Made by a program: the position numbers and the translations under genes | Shown here: piece after piece, positions 110 to 8,501 of the stretch | Layout: every line of letters starts with the position of its first letter | Position numbering within the stretch: the stretch's first letter is position 1 | DNA from: an uncultured Candidatus Altimarinota bacterium | Lineage (GTDB): Bacteria; Patescibacteriota; Gracilibacteria; BD1-5; UBA6164 | Reading direction: 5' to 3' | Length of the DNA: 8,501 nucleotides | Assembly: GCA_937864995.1 (NCBI GenBank) | Contig: CALMDL010000257.1 | Location: 1 to 8,501, forward strand | The notes under the pieces: model-generated | Seen by the model: the letters and a program-made list of their open reading frames with translations, nothing else | Told to the model about the DNA's origin: nothing | Databases searched by the model: none

Positions 110-541
110 ATGATAGTAGAAACAGCATATGCAATAGAAACTGGAGCTTCAATATTTTCAAATAATATGGAGTTTTGAGATTTTGTTCTGTTAGCTATTT
201 CAATTTTCGTTTTAGCATCTTGAATGTTTTCAATTTTATTCATTCTATGGGGGTGATTATTATTGATTTTATCTGGAGGTAAAGATGAAAAAATCAAACC
301 TGCTATAAATACAATTAGATATGCAGTTATCTGAATAATAGTAACTGTTTTTACAATATTTGTATTTCCAATATTTTGAAGATTATTAGGACTTGATGTT
401 GAAAAATATGCAGAACCTAAAAGAATATTTGAAAAAATAGAAGAAATTTGAGTTAAACTTTTTTGAAATTCATCATCAGTGGATACTGTAAATACTATAA
501 ATGATATAGATACACTTCCTTCAGACTTTTCAGATTTATAA
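110..541 (+). CDS. VirB2/TrbC-like two-helix membrane protein
   Basis: The 143-residue product (table 25) has two strong hydrophobic helices at about residues 25-54 and 69-88. They are joined by a short polar loop with SGGKDEKIKPAINTI, followed by a charged tail of about 55 residues. A helix, then GG-D-E-K-IK, then a second helix is the layout of the VirB2/TrbC pilin-like proteins common in Patescibacteria, and the operon at 4842-7178 carries the same unit. No cleavable signal peptide is evident, because the first 24 residues are only mildly hydrophobic. ATG 110 is chosen because an in-frame TAA lies at 104-106. About eight glycines are written TGA. No Shine-Dalgarno sequence precedes the start. 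The role is inferred to be an envelope or secretion-apparatus subunit. Pilin assembly has not been shown, and the conserved two-helix fold could equally be a small membrane scaffold. Confidence 0.75.
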
Positions 542-1054: not shown

Positions 1055-2242
1055 ATGCAAAAAATAGAAAATAAATTTATATATTTTATATTGATTTTAC
1101 TTGTTTTTATAATTTGATTTTCAATATATATATCTTTGTTCAAAAAATGAGTTGATAGAAACTCATATGTTGAGTTAATAGAATGAGAAGCATATGTAAA
1201 TGATGTGTTTTTGGTTAAAAATCAAAAACATAAACTTACATTAAATGATATTGTTAAAACTACAAAAGAAGAATCACTTGCAATTATTGAATGGTGAGAT
1301 TGAAGTGTAACAAGACTTTGATGAAATACTTCAGTTCAAGTTAATGAATTATATGTTTCTAATAATAAAGAAAAATTAAATATATCTTTTGAATTAATGA
1401 ATTGAAAAACATGGTCAAATGTAATTAGTTTTGTACCTGAAGATTCATATTTTAAACAAACTTTTGCCGATACTGAAGCAGCTGTTAGATGAACTATTTT
1501 TAATGTAGATTTAGAAAAAGATTATTTATATGTTGTGGATCATAAAGTAGAGTTAACAAAATCATCTTGAGACACTATTGTTGTTGATGAAAAAAAGCCT
1601 ATTTCATTATCTAATTTTACATTTATTCAATTAGAAGAATTTATAAGAAGTATTAGAGATAATGCATTTGATGAATTAAATAGAAAATTTGATATTGAGT
1701 TATTAAATAAATTAAAATTAGAGTTACAAGCAAAAATTAATAATTTAGTTGCTTTAAGTAATAGTAAAGTTGAAAATTTATCTATAGAAGATAAAACAAA
1801 ACTTTATAATGAATTATTGTCTTCGTATCAAGAATTAAATTTTGTTTCCTCAGAAGATGATAAACAACTATTTAATTTAAAGCTTTCAATTAAAGAAAAA
1901 CTTTTAAATATTGCTCCAGAAAATGAAAAAAAAGCAATTGTAGAGAGTTTTGTTTATGACTTAAAGGATTCTATAGCAACAAAGAGTTATGATTCTTTAG
2001 ATTGAATTTTAACAGTAATAAATTCTAATTCTAATTATGTTGATATTAAAGAACAAGTATTACCATATCTAGAAAAAATTAATTTGGTAGATAGTGTTAA
2101 AGAATCACTTTTAAATAATATAAATTTATTAAAAAATACTTTTTGATCTAATGATTCAAATGTGTTAGAAAAAATTTCTGAAGTGGAAAACTCTGCAAAA
2201 ACTGTTATTTGAGATAAAATTAATACTTTAATTAATAATTAG
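1055..2242 (+). CDS. Membrane-anchored FecR-domain protein
   Basis: The 395-residue product starts with a transmembrane anchor (about residues 9-28). A FecR domain follows at about 37-180, with AIIEWGDGSVTRLGGNTSV at 77-93 and EAAVRGTIFNVDL at 141-153. Both are typical FecR-fold beta-strand motifs. Residues 190-395 are mostly helical and charged and match nothing I recognise. The TM-first order places the FecR domain outside the cytoplasmic membrane. The codons for E-W-G-D-G are GAA TGG TGA GAT TGA, so TGG (Trp) and TGA (Gly) are used side by side with different meanings. The gene lies 6 bases upstream of the CHASE2-adenylate cyclase. FecR genes next to CHASE2 cyclases are known in other bacteria, which supports a joint envelope-sensing role. 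The ligand is unknown. ATG 1055 is the first start; no Shine-Dalgarno sequence is present. Confidence 0.82.
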
Positions 2243-2248
2243 TAAATT

Positions 2249-4366
2249 TTGAGTAATAAATTCTTACAAAATAGAGTTGTTTTAACTATATTTATTTCAA
2301 GTTTTATACTATTTTTAGTTTTGATATTAAGTAATCCTTTTTATGTTATAAATGAAAAAATAAAATCATTTATAATAAAAACTAAAAATGAAATATATAT
2401 ACTAGATGAAACAAAAGTAAATCAACTTATAAACAATGATATAGTTGTTGTTACATTTGATGAAAAAACTTTGGATAAATTGTGATTTCCAATTTCTAGA
2501 AGAGATTATAAGCCAATTATAGAAAATTTAAATAATGCATGAGCAGAAATAATTGGTTTTGATATAATTTTTGCAAATAATAATAATTTAGATCCAGAAT
2601 GAGATGATATTTTTGCACAAGCAATAAATTCTGCATGAAATGTAGTATTATGATGAGCAATTATTTCTAAATCATTTAGTTGAGAGACTTTGGGAATAAT
2701 TGAAAAACCATTGGATAAATTTTTATCTTGAGCTTTATCTTTTGGTTATTATCAACCAAATGTAGATACTAAAACAAATATGGTAACAAGTTTTAGACCA
2801 TCTACTAATATATATAATTCAGATAAAACAATTTCAAATTACACACATTTTAGTATTTCTATATTAAAAGCATATTTTTCAAGAATTTATAATAAAGATT
2901 TTATAAATTATGAATTTAAAGATTCAGATTTTTATTATGTAAGACCAGATTATAAAATACCTTTTTTACTTTCTTGAGCTAAAGATGTATTGGTTAATTT
3001 TATACCATTACCAGAAACAAAAGAAAATAAATATTCTAAATTCCCCTCTTATTCATTTTTAGATGTATATGAGAATAAGATAAATCCAAAAGATTTTGAA
3101 TGAAAGATTGTTTTAATTTGAGCAACAGCTAAAGGAATTAAAGATATATTTGAAACTCCGAATGGTATAGAATATTGAGTTTATGTTTTAGCAAATGTAA
3201 TAAATACTATATTAACTAAAAATTATTTATTATATTTGGATAAAAACTTAGAGATTTTATTAATATTTACTCTTATTTTATTATCAGTTTATTCTAATTT
3301 GTCTCGTTCTGGATATGTTTTAGTATTTAGTAATATAGCTATTACCTCTATATTTTTAGTTATATTTCCCATAACTATTCTTATATTTACATCATATCTT
3401 TTAAATCATTTATTTGAATTGTTTTTCGCACTTGTTTTATCTCTTACTATTTCAAATACAGTAAAATATATAGTTGAAAATAAAAATAAAAATAAATTAA
3501 ATAAAGCTCTTTCAGAATATGTATCAAAGGCTATTGCTGATGAAGTATTATCAAATTCGTGAAAAATAAATCTTGATTGAGAAAGAAAAAATTTAGCAAT
3601 TTATTTTTCTGATATAGAATGATTTACTACAATTTCAGAAAAATTTGAACCAGAAGAACTAGTTGCATTTCTTAGAGAATTTTTATCGGAAATGTCTGAT
3701 ATAATAATGGATGAGAAATGATTTATAAATAAATATGAATGAGATGCTATAATGGCACTCTGGTGAGCTTTTACTCCTTATGATAATTCAGCATACAATG
3801 CATGTATTTCAGCTTTATACCAACAAAAAAGACTTTTAGAATTAAATGAAATATGGTGAAAACGTGGCTTTTCTACAATAAAAGTTAGAATTGGTTTACA
3901 TACTTGAGAGGCAATTGTGTGAAATATATGATCATCATGAAGAAAAATGGAATTTACTGCTCTTTGAGATAGTGTTAATCTTGCTTCTCGTTTAGAATGA
4001 GTAAATAAATTTTATTGAACATATATATGTGCAAGTGAAACAATATACGAAGAAGTAAAAGATCAATTTGAGTTTAGGTATCTTGATAAAATCAGAGTTA
4101 AATGAAAAAGTAAGCCTATAAAAATATACGAATTATTATGATTAAAGTGAGAAGTTAGTGATAATATTTTAAATATAAGAAGTTTATTTGAAGATGCTTT
4201 AAATTTATATAATTCAAGAGATTTTTTATCAGCAAAAAATTCATTTTTAGAATTAATAAAATTATGAGATAATGCTAGTAAGTTTTATTTAGAAATGTCA
4301 GAATTTTATATTAAAAATCCTCCTTCTGTTGATTGGGATGGGGTTTCTGAAATGAAATGAAAATAA
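2249..4366 (+). CDS. CHASE2-domain class III adenylate cyclase
   Basis: This 705-residue membrane enzyme is expected to make cAMP from ATP. It has an N-terminal helix (about 11-29) and an extracytoplasmic CHASE2 sensor (about 60-325). The sensor contains VVVTFDEKTLDKLG near its start and KIVLIGATAKGIKD then YGVYVLANVINTIL near its end. Three or four membrane helices follow (about 334-412), then the cyclase domain (about 445-630). The metal-binding aspartates are D455 (FSDIEGFT) and D499 (KYEGDAIMAL). K495 and T570 are the adenine-selecting pair usual for class IIIb cyclases. N577 and R581 (GDSVNLASRLEG) stabilise the transition state. The C-terminal NPPSVDWDGV is typical of CHASE2 cyclases. 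By my hand count about three quarters of the glycines are TGA. The start is TTG 2249, because a TAA lies at 2243-2245 and no ATG precedes the first helix. It is co-transcribed with the FecR gene. Confidence 0.94.
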
Positions 4367-4537: not shown

Positions 4538-4612
4538 CGCGGAGTGGAGAAGTGGTATCTCGTCGGGCTCATAACCCGAAGATCATAGGTTCAATTCCTA
4601 TCTCCGCAACCA
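4538..4612 (+). tRNA. Initiator tRNA-fMet(CAT), CCA encoded
   Basis: Anticodon CAT is at 4570-4572 in the loop CTCATAA. Two hallmarks mark it as the initiator rather than elongator tRNA-Met. The first acceptor position is an unpaired C facing A (CGCGGAG against CTCCGCA), and the anticodon stem carries three consecutive G-C pairs (GGG/CCC). CCA is encoded at 4610-4612. It follows tRNA-Glu by 24 bases and is probably co-transcribed with it. Its last 21 bases and the 6 bases after it recur at 4759-4785. Confidence 0.94.
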
Positions 4613-4618
4613 AATTAA
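4592..4618 (+). repeat. 27-nt direct repeat, copy 1 (3' end of tRNA-fMet)
   Basis: This copy runs from the tRNA T loop through the encoded CCA and six bases beyond. It is identical over 27 nt to 4759-4785. Repeats that restore a tRNA 3' end are the usual footprint of integrase-mediated insertion (att sites), but only about 140 bases lie between the copies. Confidence 0.9.
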
Positions 4619-4670: not shown

Positions 4671-4766
4671 AGGAATTGAAAAGGAGGGTTTTTCTGTAAG
4701 AAAAATTTTATTGTGACGAATAGGAACAATAAAAACGGGTGTCCGACCTGAAAGGCGACAATTCCT
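4671..4766 (+). ncRNA. Putative small structured RNA between two terminators
   Basis: The segment is bounded by a perfect 8-bp pairing, AGGAATTG (4671-4678) with CAATTCCT (4759-4766). Inside are two more hairpins, TTTTTC/GAAAAA (4689-4694 with 4700-4705) and TTTTATTGT/ACAATAAAA (4706-4714 with 4726-4734). A G/C-rich piece at 4737-4757 includes CCTGAAAGG. It carries AAGGAGGG (4681-4688), the only Shine-Dalgarno-like string I found in the window, but with no gene behind it. The following 19 bases copy the tRNA-fMet 3' tail including CCA. A plus-strand terminator lies at 4791-4827. No promoter is obvious, and I do not recognise an RNA family. It might instead be the remnant of a small inserted element. 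Confidence 0.35.
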
Positions 4767-4785
4767 ATCTCCGCAACCAAATTAA
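4759..4785 (+). repeat. 27-nt direct repeat, copy 2 (duplicated tRNA-fMet tail)
   Basis: This copy is identical to 4592-4618 and includes a second CTCCGCAACCA tail. The bases upstream do not resemble the rest of a tRNA, so this is not a second gene. Its first eight bases also form the closing helix of the putative RNA at 4671-4766. Confidence 0.9.
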
Positions 4786-4841: not shown

Positions 4842-5285
4842 TTATTTATAAATCCATGGAGCAATTATTTGTAAAATTGGACCACTTAATAATAATAAAA
4901 TTAATCATATTAGAGTGGCTACAATTCTTTTTTTAGAATCATCTTTCATTGATTGATCAATTCATCACATACTATATAATATACCATTATATACTATAAA
5001 TAATACTCAACTTAACAATGCAATATATGTAAAATATTTTATTATATTACCAAGCATTTTTACTATTTGTGTAGCTCATTTCTCAACTTGACAATCATAT
5101 AATGCAGGATTTCAATTTTCATCTCTAATTATTTCTCATTTTTTATTTTTTACCTCATCACAAGTAACTCATGGTACTTTTTCTGTAACTCTAACTTTTA
5201 CTGTATCTCAAGATGCAGCAAAACTATAATTTATTTGAAATAATAAACTAGTTATTATGATTATACTTAATATTATTTTTTTCAT
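4842..5285 (-). CDS. Exported single-unit VirB2/TrbC-like protein
   Basis: The 147-residue protein begins with a clear Sec signal peptide (MKK, hydrophobic core, likely cleavage near residue 24 after SFAA). An extracytoplasmic stretch of about 50 residues contains two cysteines (about C42 and C65) that could form a disulfide. Two membrane helices (about 79-104 and 121-144) flank the loop MGGIDQSMKDDSKKR. Signal peptide, two helices and a short polar loop make the VirB2/TrbC pilin-like architecture. It is the last gene of a three-gene operon, and its ATG starts one base after the upstream stop (TAA-C-ATG), so translation is probably coupled. It carries one unit where its two upstream neighbours carry three each. 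It could be the structural subunit while the larger ones act as scaffold, but this is conjecture. Confidence 0.78.
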
Positions 5286-5286
5286 G

Positions 5287-6189
5287 TTAGAAGTTCATTA
5301 AATCATATAAAAATATATAAGAAACAAGTAATATAGCTGTTGCTAATACAGTATTTACAACTATACTTTTTCATTTTTTTGCTTTCTCCTCATCTCAACC
5401 TGATGTTATATAATAATATCATGCAAGAGTTAAGAAAAATATAGCAATAGGTCAAGCTAAGAATAATGCTAAGTTTGCAATAGTTTCAAAAATATCTTTT
5501 CAAGCAGAAATTTCTCCTTTATATGCAAATTTTTGCCAAGCTTCTATAAATCAAACAAATATTAGTCATATAACTGACCATATTATTTTATTTTTTGCTT
5601 CAGTAACTTGTTCTTCTCTTCATCTTGAAGAAATTATTTTTAATCATGCAATAATTATAATAGTAATTGCTAATCATACAAGAATAATTTCTAAAAATTT
5701 TATAACAGTGTTATTTAAAGTTATGACAAAAACATCAGTATTTATAAATAAATTTGTAGTTGATGTTGATATGTCATTACTCCAAGAGCTTCAAATTCAT
5801 CAATTTACGGTTGTTTTATCTCATTTTACAGCATTGTATATAGTTCAAGGCATATTTATAAAAAATAAACCTATAGCACTATACCAAATTGATCTTTTAG
5901 CATTTGATAATGATTCTTCATCTGTTCACATAGACATTATCATTTGTGCTCAAGAATATACTAAATATATAAGTAGTATTCATGAAAAAACATATTTTAT
6001 TTTACCTAATATAGTAAAAGAAACATATGAAACAGTATCTGATATATCTGAACTAGATCAACTTATAACAATTGATTTTTCATTTGTTATTCCATCTAAT
6101 CATTTTACATTTCAAGCATAAGTATCTGTTATTATAAATATGCTAAATAACGCAATGAGTGTTAGAATTATTTTTTTTGTAATTTTCAT
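5287..6189 (-). CDS. Three-unit VirB2/TrbC-like polytopic membrane protein
   Basis: The 300-residue protein has a signal peptide (likely cleavage near residue 25, TYA-GN) and three copies of a two-helix unit. The inter-helix loops are SMGTDEESLSNAKRS (86-100), SSRGREEQVTEAKNK (187-201) and TSGGDEEKAKKGKS (262-275). Each loop has hydrophobic helices on both sides. The third copy is closest to the VirB2/TrbC-like consensus seen in Patescibacteria. Ser/Thr/Asn/Gly-rich linkers (about 124-150) separate units 1 and 2. No cysteines are present. Most glycines in the loops and helices are TGA. ATG 6189 is the only sensible start. No Shine-Dalgarno sequence precedes it, only a TATAAT-like stretch and A-rich bases. 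It is the middle gene of the operon, 14 bases after its paralogue. The function is unknown; an envelope part of a type IV secretion-like machine is inferred. Confidence 0.78.
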
Positions 6190-6203
6190 ATTTTTTAATT
6201 ATA

Positions 6204-7178
6204 TTAAATAATTGCTTCTGGCCTTAGTAAGAATGTAAGTATAAAATAATTCATTATTAGAATTGCTATTCATATAACTATATATACTATAGAACTTTTT
6301 GCTTTTGCTAATTTTTCTTCATCTCAAGCTGAGAATAATACTTGAATTCAAGCATATACTATCATTAGTATTACTGCAATTCATACAAATCAATTCATCC
6401 AATTTATTATTTTTACTATTATTTCTGATAATCAAGAAATTTGGTTTTCAGCATTACAATTACTTCAATTTATTTGAAAAATTCAAAGTATAGTCATCTC
6501 ATTACAATCCACTTTTCAATAACTTGCATTTACTATTTCTTTTGCTAATTTTACAACTATAAATCATATTAATCAATAGAAAATACTCATTTTTCATGTT
6601 TTTACTTTTTCTTCATCTCAATTTGCAGTTATTATTGAATAAAATGCATAAATTGCAATTAATATAAAGAAAAACGAAGCAGCAGTTTCAAGTATTTTTA
6701 TAATAGGACTTATTAAGTTTTTAGTTAAATTATTTGCAAGTACTCATCATACATCTTTTGCATAAAGAGTATTAATCGCATAAAACGATATTTGCATCAC
6801 TATTATTCAAATAGTAATCCACATTATTCATTTTTTAAAATTTCAAACTTCTTCTTCAGTATTTTCTGAGAATATTAATTTAACAACAAGTATTAAAAAA
6901 TATAATCCAGATAATATATAAAAAATAGCTTTTAAGTCTTTTGCAACAGAGAACAAAAGATAATATATTGATCTCTCTCATTCTGTTCATACTTTTATAT
7001 CTCAATTTGTTCATAATTGATTTAAGTAATCATTTGTAATTCCATTTCATCAGCTATTATTTCATATTGTAACATTATTTGCTGTTGGAACATAGTTGAT
7101 ATCTAGAGAGTAAGCACTATTTAGATTTATAAATAAGTAACTTGAGAATACCAATATAGTTATGATTAATTTTTTCAT
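6204..7178 (-). CDS. Three-unit VirB2/TrbC-like polytopic membrane protein, paralogue
   Basis: The 324-residue protein has a signal peptide (likely cleavage near residue 24, SAYS-LD) and a Gly/Asn-rich exported stretch (about 25-65). Three two-helix units follow, with loops FSENTEEEVGNFKKG (103-117), TANGDEEKVKTGKMS (184-198) and FSAGDEEKLAKAKSS (282-296). Two cysteines, C225 and C241, lie in the segment between units 2 and 3 and could pair. It shares its plan with the next gene, so the two probably arose by duplication of an already tripled gene. It is first in the operon, downstream of the coupling ATPase and separated from it by a terminator and a possible promoter. ATG 7178 directly precedes the signal peptide. 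No family name fits the full length; the single units resemble VirB2/TrbC. Confidence 0.78.
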
Positions 7179-7234: not shown

Positions 7235-7266
7235 AAAAAACAGATAGTTTTATCTATCTGTTTTTT
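7235..7266 (-). terminator. Rho-independent terminator after the coupling ATPase
   Basis: AAAAAACAGATAG (7235-7247) pairs with CTATCTGTTTTTT (7254-7266) around the loop TTTTAT. On the minus strand it follows the ATPase gene directly, and its edge touches the stop codon at 7266-7268. The loop and flanks match the terminator at 543-572. Confidence 0.87.
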
Positions 7267-8501
7267 TATTCTGGCATAATTCAAAGTCTTGCTTCTATTT
7301 CCATATCAACATATTTCTTTTTTCTACCATATTTTTTTCTACTATATTCTCTTATTATATTTGCAACATCCAAGTTTTTATAATTGTTATCCCATATTGT
7401 TTTTAAGTCAAATGGTCTAGTTGTTGCATTATCTATGTTTAATTTACAATAAGCAGTAAAATTGGCAATTCATATAATATCTTGTTGAGACAATAGAGGA
7501 GCATATTCTTTTTCCATATATTCAGCATCATCCGCACCTACCTTAAAACTCATTATTGTTCAGGCATTACCAAAAACTGCATCTTTAATACTCGGTTTAT
7601 CTCATTTTTGTCAGCTATTTCCTCATATTTGAGCAATGAATTGGTGAGCCATAACTAAAGCTAAATGATATTTTCTGGCTTCTGATAATATTTCTCAAAA
7701 TGTTTCAGTTGCAAAGTTTTGAAACTCATCAACATACATATAAAAATCTTTTCTCTCAGGTTCAGGTATATCAGCTCTACTCATAGCTGCCATATTTACT
7801 TTTGATACAAATATCAAACCAAGTAATTGTGCATTCAATGCTCAAATTTTACCTTTTGATAAATTTACTAAAAGTATTTTTCTATTATCCATCATATCTC
7901 TAATATTGAATGCAGATTTTGGTTGTCCTATAATATTTCTAATAGTCGTATTAGTAATAAATGGTCCAAACTTACTTGAAAAATAAGGAATCATTTCTTG
8001 TTTTTCTCTTTCTCAAGTATTAGCATATTCATGTTCCCAAAATGATTTAACGACAGGATTTTTTACTTTAGACACTTTGTATTTCATAAAAGCATCGTCT
8101 ACAAATAGCCTTGGAACATCTATAAGTGTACCACCATCTTCGACATCTTCCATAAGTGTCAAACATCCATTTCTAAAATAGTGTTGTATTCTAGGACCGA
8201 AAACCTCATCTCAGAATATTTTTATAAATATTTCAGTAGCATCCATTGCTGCTCTATCCATTTCTCTTTTTCTTATTTCAGGATCTGTAGATATTACTTC
8301 TAGCATATTTAATCACATTGGTCTTTCATCATCACTTGGATCAAAAATAATTACATCTTTTGCTCTTTCTTTAGGTGTAAAAGCAAGTACATCTTCGACA
8401 AGGTCTCCGTGAGGATCAATTACACAAACTCAATCACCATTCCGGACATCTTGTCTAGCAAGATATCATATAAAAACAGATTTTCATCCTCAAGATTTTC
8501 A
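7266..8501 (-). CDS. VirD4/TraD-like type IV coupling ATPase (partial, N-terminus missing)
   Basis: The visible 411 residues begin inside the Walker A loop (GKSGGGKS, residues 1-8) and run to the true C-terminus. After it come VCVIDPHGDLVEDVL (25-39) and GLNMLE, then NLSKGKIGALNAQLLG ahead of the Walker B strand FYMYVDEFQNFAT, whose D258-E259 coordinate magnesium and activate water. LSEARKYHLALVMAHQ follows, with Q287 in the sensor position, and then VFGNAGTIMSFKVGADDAEY. These are the signatures of the TraD/VirD4 hexameric ATPases that feed DNA or protein into type IV secretion channels. Proteins of this type are also widespread in Patescibacteria without a conjugative element. Three of the four Walker A glycines are TGA. 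Any N-terminal membrane helices lie beyond the right edge. The neighbouring pilin-like operon supports a secretion-type role, although a chromosome-pumping relative cannot be excluded. Confidence 0.9.

Follow-up and report, generated by a model that had tools for sequence, protein, structure and literature searches.

The window, a stretch of 8,501 nucleotides that makes up an entire contig (G000:C257), belongs to a genome of 1.21 Mb in 355 contigs that is 85% complete. Its reading frames are open only when TGA is read as glycine. Where an organism name accompanies homologues of its genes A and B, or their loci, that name is Candidatus Gracilibacteria, and all eight loci recovered in a scan of named genomes are titled Gracilibacteria. 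On the minus strand, a VirD4/TraG-type ATPase gene is followed by A, B and C, with 14 bases separating A from B and a single base separating B from C. The features are as follows.

7266..8501, minus strand: VirD4/TraG-type ATPase gene, truncated to 411 aa by the edge of the window and contig
7235..7266, minus strand: terminator-like hairpin separating A from the VirD4 gene, a consensus match only
6204..7178, minus strand: gene A, 324 aa, an export-signal-like N-terminus (judged by eye) and three T4SS_pilin units, 1, 2 and 3, at residues 65-142, 148-222 and 247-320
5287..6189, minus strand: gene B, 300 aa, an export-signal-like N-terminus (judged by eye) and three T4SS_pilin units, 1, 2 and 3, at residues 47-124, 148-226 and 227-300
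4842..5285, minus strand: gene C, 147 aa, a single T4SS_pilin unit at the C-terminal end
110..541, plus strand: an additional one-unit T4SS_pilin protein, 143 aa, at the opposite end of this same locus

The truncated ATPase scores 45.2 bits against T4SS-DNA_transf, for which the cut-off is 20.1, and its uncut relatives are about 810-982 aa long. Since a terminator-like hairpin precedes A, A-B-C may form a separate transcription unit. Elsewhere in the window (1055-4366, plus strand), a FecR-type gene precedes a CHASE2-guanylate/adenylate cyclase gene; both share the A-B-C locus in 10 of 20 loci of the window's family, some of these loci being short. The 3′ end of a tRNA-Met gene together with the bases that follow it (4592-4618) recurs 167 bases downstream (4759-4785) as 27 identical bases, a pattern that integration next to a tRNA would leave, unless the copy is the remnant of a tRNA.

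Pilin-type units and predicted hairpins

A preliminary description of this DNA had read A and B as neighbouring genes with three VirB2-like units apiece, and the third gene of the operon as carrying one. The frames bear this out. A Pfam search places PF18895 (T4SS_pilin) three times in A, three times in B and once in C, with whole-protein scores of 70 bits for B (E 1.8e-19), 66.7 for A (E 2e-18) and 28.9 for C, against a cut-off of 26.6. Three units per protein in A and B also emerge with a profile derived from units of the window itself. When the six A and B units are scored singly in the search of their own genome, they reach 16.7-25.6 bits, each under the PF18895 cut-off, and this single-unit search at E<=1 also produces matches in 11 of 14 control genomes, one of them over the cut-off. 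The related model NF045849 (Mbov_0395 family pilin-like conjugal transfer protein) takes A at 44.5 against a cut-off of 40, with B just below at 39.1. PF04956 (TrbC/VirB2) has no match in A, B or C at E<=1, and it recognizes the A homologue P0073 (32.6 against 27.9 bits), with P0104 below the cut-off at 26.4. The proposed kinship with VirB2/TrbC is thus supported by PF18895 over its cut-off for all three proteins, by NF045849 for A and by PF04956 for the homologue P0073. A VirB2 protein is expected to carry one two-helix hairpin per polypeptide; A and B carry three units and three predicted hairpins. A PHROGs search returned no match.

The loop motif claimed for every unit, G-D/E-E-(K/Q), fares less well. 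It fails for unit 1 of A (N-T-E-E-E), for unit 2 of B (G-R-E-E-Q) and for C, which is without E-E, and across the orthologues counted E-E is common in the loop, not universal. A steadier mark is the lysine seven residues after the first glutamate, present as K in 225 and as R in 14 of 255 units.

AlphaFold2 models of both proteins as monomers contain the repeated helical hairpin that the preliminary description had proposed, three in each, at modest confidence. The input alignments held 113 (A) and 115 (B) sequences, drawn from 120 listed hits each, of which 112 were used for A and 114 for B. In the model of A, three pairs of long helices follow an N-terminal helix (mean pLDDT 62.8, pTM 0.35); B has the same arrangement (mean pLDDT 70.7, pTM 0.46), with its second helix broken at residue 113. 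The packing of the units against one another in these models is unreliable, its confidence being low. A Foldseek search of the PDB with A and a VIA-align search with B gave only unspecific helical proteins, with no pilin, VirB6 or other T4SS chain among the matches listed for either low-confidence model, and a sequence search of solved structures found no convincing match.

A and B are predicted to be membrane proteins exported by Sec, their N-termini having been judged by eye, with the lysine-rich turns of the hairpins in the cytosol and the linkers outside. This predicted topology draws on the family and the signal-like N-terminus more than on charge: the turns hold on average 2.7-5.1 K+R and 2.8-3.5 D+E, and with acidic residues about as many as basic ones the charge argument is weak. 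The linker between units 2 and 3 of A carries two or more cysteines in 108 of 113 sequences, which agrees with its placement outside.

The six units are not alike. In the outer portion of the second helix, unit 1 of A has Gln in 25 of 25 sequences, unit 2 Lys/Arg in 25 of 25 and unit 3 Asn/Ser in 25 of 25; in B, unit 1 has Asn in 29 of 29 and unit 2 Glu/Gln in 27 of 29, while unit 3 has no polar residue at that depth but keeps an Asn closer to the turn (N279, conserved in 111 of 115). Five of the six unit positions retain a buried polar residue of their own. A salt bridge between the Lys/Arg of A unit 2 and the Glu of B unit 2 was considered but is not claimed, the sister families being mostly acidic there in both genes. 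Two A orthologues have long N-terminal extensions, in frames of 600 aa (L070:7163-8965) and 485 aa (L118:7717-9174), the former with weak thrombospondin type 3 repeat matches below the cut-off.

Conservation, neighbourhood and history of the fused triples

The pair of fused triples is no local oddity but is conserved across the order. In its 60 genomes, the window's own included, A is matched in 59 and B in 58, and in the subset with completeness of 90% or more and contamination of 5% or less both are matched in 42 of 42. Near-full three-unit matches (at least 230 of 324 residues for A, at least 250 of 300 for B) occur in 55 and 56 genomes of the order, respectively; matches are partial only for A in G017, G032, G048 and G057 and for B in G046 and G059, while G010 has neither gene matched and G057 has no B match. 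As a rule, a genome has a single long match to A and a single long match to B. The window-derived profile finds three units in 119 of 121 A sequences and 120 of 121 B sequences, each set being the window's own protein and 120 listed homologues (the best 120 of 131 for A and of 163 for B); the three exceptions have two units.

Gene neighbourhoods were sampled at 28 A loci and 32 B loci, out of 59 genomes with an A match and 58 with a B match. All 28 A loci have a VirD4-family gene adjoining A, upstream in 27 and downstream in one (G044); the upstream gene of G025 is a 62-aa fragment at a contig end. In G036 (L069:5416-11504), two different VirD4-type ATPase genes flank A on the same strand. B is followed by a one-unit gene at 30 of 32 loci (exceptions G015 and G058). 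The proposal that A and B are tandem paralogues holds in the window's family, where they are adjacent at 19 of 20 B loci (exception G015), but not in sister families f2 and f3, where B lies apart from A at 12 of 12. At 10 of those 12 loci a PilT-type gene directly precedes B (exceptions G036 and G042); next to A, the sole PilT-like gene labelled is that of G054, which has 37.6% identity and lies on the other strand. Since B-C stands apart from A in f2 and f3 and together with it in the window's family, VirD4-A and B-C seem to be two modules, which in the latter stand side by side. Homologues of PrgI, of a TrsD-like protein or of the VirB6 candidate discussed below are labelled in none of the loci of the order that were read. 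The window's genome has four further sites with one-unit T4SS_pilin genes (L017:8942-10947, L019:7880-8622, L020:2334-2828 and L018:11651-12043): a row of four, a row of two, a single gene beside PilC/O/N-like genes, so labelled from reading the sequences, and another beside PrgI.

The arrangement extends beyond the order into other families of the class, which were read with TGA as stop and where multi-unit genes frequently occur as adjacent pairs. Fifteen such genomes were examined, chosen because a search had matched them: at the threshold applied, 3+3 units are present in 12, 3+2 or 2+3 in two, and fewer in one. The unit-bearing gene that comes next codes, in 10 of these genomes, for a giant protein of 1488-1673 aa (1074 aa where a contig end truncates one of them) whose single unit lies close to the N-terminus; in that of G137, the one tested, Pfam finds PKD repeats in the remainder. 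Among 117 genomes of the class, the order included, a profile of the three-unit gene matches 110 at E<=1e-12, where a match may be to a single unit; the match covers at least 225 of 315 positions in at least 76 of the 117, and two matches of such length lie side by side in at least 51 of them, in 15 families, so the tandem of three-unit genes is not due to chance. The seven unmatched genomes all belong to family f140 (G359, G373, G387, G390, G397, G400 and G413), in which every other genome has a single match (best E 4.1e-21 to 7.1e-13); a lineage-wide loss of three-unit genes is possible there.

Outside the class, the 18 best-scoring loci are rows of mostly separate one-unit genes. In 16 of them (without G219 and G308, near contig ends), the rows comprise 4-8 units on one strand with a median of six, numbers that are no census, as the loci were chosen by score. 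Two-unit fusions occur in G296, G303 and G168. By eye, the members of these arrays show no clear order when set in gene order against unit positions 1-2-3.

The triple probably predates the gene pair. In profile-profile comparison, same-position units of A, B and the two adjacent class genes match one another best: their mean score is 75.1, against 64.0 averaged over every labeling, and of the 216 labelings two reach that value, the true one and another at 75.3. The likeness across genes is most simply read as an initial formation of the triple, followed by duplication of the entire gene. Unit 3 shows this likeness most clearly and also resembles the lone unit of the giant proteins; unit 1 of A shows it least. 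A and B form separate clades, supported at 100/100 and 100/100 in a first tree and at 100/100 and 100/99 in a second, which retained 16 of the 25 A sequences and 18 of the 29 B sequences. The second tree and the unit profiles omit seven doubtfully placed rows from the class (two each from G105, G165 and G301, one from G326). In the best tree A groups with the downstream gene of the sister families' pair (support 91/74), with alternatives at p-AU 0.39 and 0.215. One shared duplication may account for the pairs of the order and of the sister families, its alternatives not being rejected by these tree tests.

A candidate membrane complex and its alternatives

The constant VirD4 neighbour of A points to type IV secretion. 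The window's genome also encodes PrgI and a VirB4-type ATPase (P-loop_TraG, 88.3 against a cut-off of 25.8 bits). In nine of nine genomes VirB4_CagE has matches, with best E values of 3.4e-28 to 3.9e-37 and all below the cut-off of the model; the same search picks up 13 of 14 control genomes as well, one of them above the cut-off. The distance from A to the VirB4-like match is 3.4 kb in G045; in the other eight of the nine genomes the match is far off or on another contig. DNA import as the sole function was considered and set aside: ComEC is present in nine of nine genomes, so DNA import need not depend on the A-B-C system.

At about an even chance, A, B and C constitute a collar or channel base of fixed stoichiometry in the cytoplasmic membrane, on which the VirD4-type ATPase acts. 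The three proteins would act jointly, the three-unit proteins assembling with the one-unit C, and would be the equivalent of the row of about six mostly separate pilin genes in other Patescibacteria. Because three hairpins are linked and are not interchangeable, the product would be a defined hetero-oligomer and no homopolymer filament; it is the position-specific polar residues together with the linkage that argue for non-interchangeable places. VirD4 would then feed protein or DNA through or past the collar during contact with a host cell. The separation of B from A at all 12 f2 and f3 loci counts against taking the joint complex as proven; the remoteness of the VirB4-like match in eight of nine genomes, the absence of PrgI, TrsD-like and VirB6-candidate homologues from the order's loci that were read, and the low confidence of unit packing in the models also weigh against the assembly. 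The PilT neighbour in f2 and f3 suggests cooperation with type IV pili. The preliminary suggestion of a ring or scaffold rather than a filament is in this light plausible, the units being diverged and position-specific, and we infer the assembly itself.

The filament is nonetheless the alternative to be weighed first. A and B may be pilus subunits, the fused triples polymerizing, alone or mixed, into a VirB2-like filament for host attachment, and a fused protein could still polymerize. All units do fall within a pilin family, and other T4SS_pilin genes coexist in the same genome. The pilins of solved pili, however, consist of one hairpin, whereas here three units are linked; the unit positions have diverged, five of six keeping a polar residue of their own; and genomes usually hold one long A and one long B match. 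Such a filament appears rather unlikely, even though PMC12102498 and PMC12857230 treat the Patescibacteria arrays as putative pilins.

It is decidedly doubtful that A, B or both replace VirB6/CedA, three pilin hairpins having fused into a six-helix channel subunit. Six long helices are predicted in each of A and B. According to PMC9905601, the N-terminal part of CedA, a protein of six or seven helices, is homologous to the pilin CedA1, with VirB6 and VirB2 likewise related at a lower score; and PMC12102498 reports that VirB6 homologues are lacking from the class Gracilibacteria in its own definition of that class. Against this, PF04610 (TrbL/VirB6) has no match in A or B at E<=1, and the order has another VirB6 candidate, with relatives in nine of nine genomes and a length of 753 aa in G005. 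That candidate scores 26.1 bits against TrbL (cut-off 25.9) in one test and has no match in another; a TrbL search of the nine genomes matches in two, over the cut-off in one, and in 4 of 14 controls too.

More improbable still is that A, B and C have left type IV secretion to serve type IV pili (PilT-driven twitching or DNA uptake) or to anchor surface proteins, PKD stalks among them, for while PilT-type genes precede B in f2 and f3, a one-unit homologue sits beside genes read as PilC/O/N and the class has a giant PKD protein with one unit, A keeps its VirD4-family neighbour at every locus sampled and has a PilT-like gene labelled beside it in G054 alone, on the other strand.

A more specific form of the collar is conceivable, if quite unlikely. 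The VirD4 motor is hexameric, and A and B might close on it into a 3+3 pseudo-hexameric ring of non-identical hairpins, with C as an outer cap or adhesive arm; the system would then be a covalently linked channel of pilin parts and a living intermediate between VirB2 and VirB6/CedA. The multi-hairpin proteolipids (c subunits) of the V/A-type ATPases likewise join several two-helix hairpins in one chain and sit in a membrane ring; they belong to an unrelated family, and the likeness to A and B, should these form a ring, would be one of working principle only.

Closer relatives are known. PF18895 and NF045849 describe the same family as the units of A, B and C, so the unit, contrary to the preliminary description, does have a named family. 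Both models cover a single unit (71 and 80 positions), unlike A and B with three diverged fused units, twice over. VirB2 arrays of 2-11 pilin genes occur across Patescibacteria according to PMC12102498, where PF18895 is among the profiles used, and PMC12857230 describes an essential six-pilin array in Southlakia epibionticum. As these sources present them, the arrays resemble A and B in pilin profile, in their diverged pilins in a row, in phylum and in their link to a T4SS, but they are genes in tandem, whereas here 3+3 units are covalently joined and a seventh is supplied by C. The archaeal Ced/Ted systems, as described in PMC9905601, share with A and B a polytopic protein of six or seven helices related to a two-helix pilin, alongside a VirB4/HerA-type ATPase; CedA is reported to be pilin-like in its N-terminal part only, and A and B are built of pilin units throughout. 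Fused triples go unmentioned in the T4SS-repertoire section of PMC12102498, and no description of a fused three-unit pilin plan was found in the open-licence literature searched. The unit family and the Patescibacteria pilin arrays are known, the fused-triple architecture is undescribed as far as searched, and its function is proposed here from the evidence above.

In the one Patescibacterium tested, type IV secretion is reported to be essential for epibiotic growth, and its six diverged 'pilins' have been read as a possible pilus (PMC12857230 and PMC12102498). The 3+3 fusion with its position-specific residues argues for distinct hairpin places in a defined complex. PMC9905601 states as open which came first, the VirB2 pilin or the VirB6/CedA pore, and on this question the fused triples may offer a handle.
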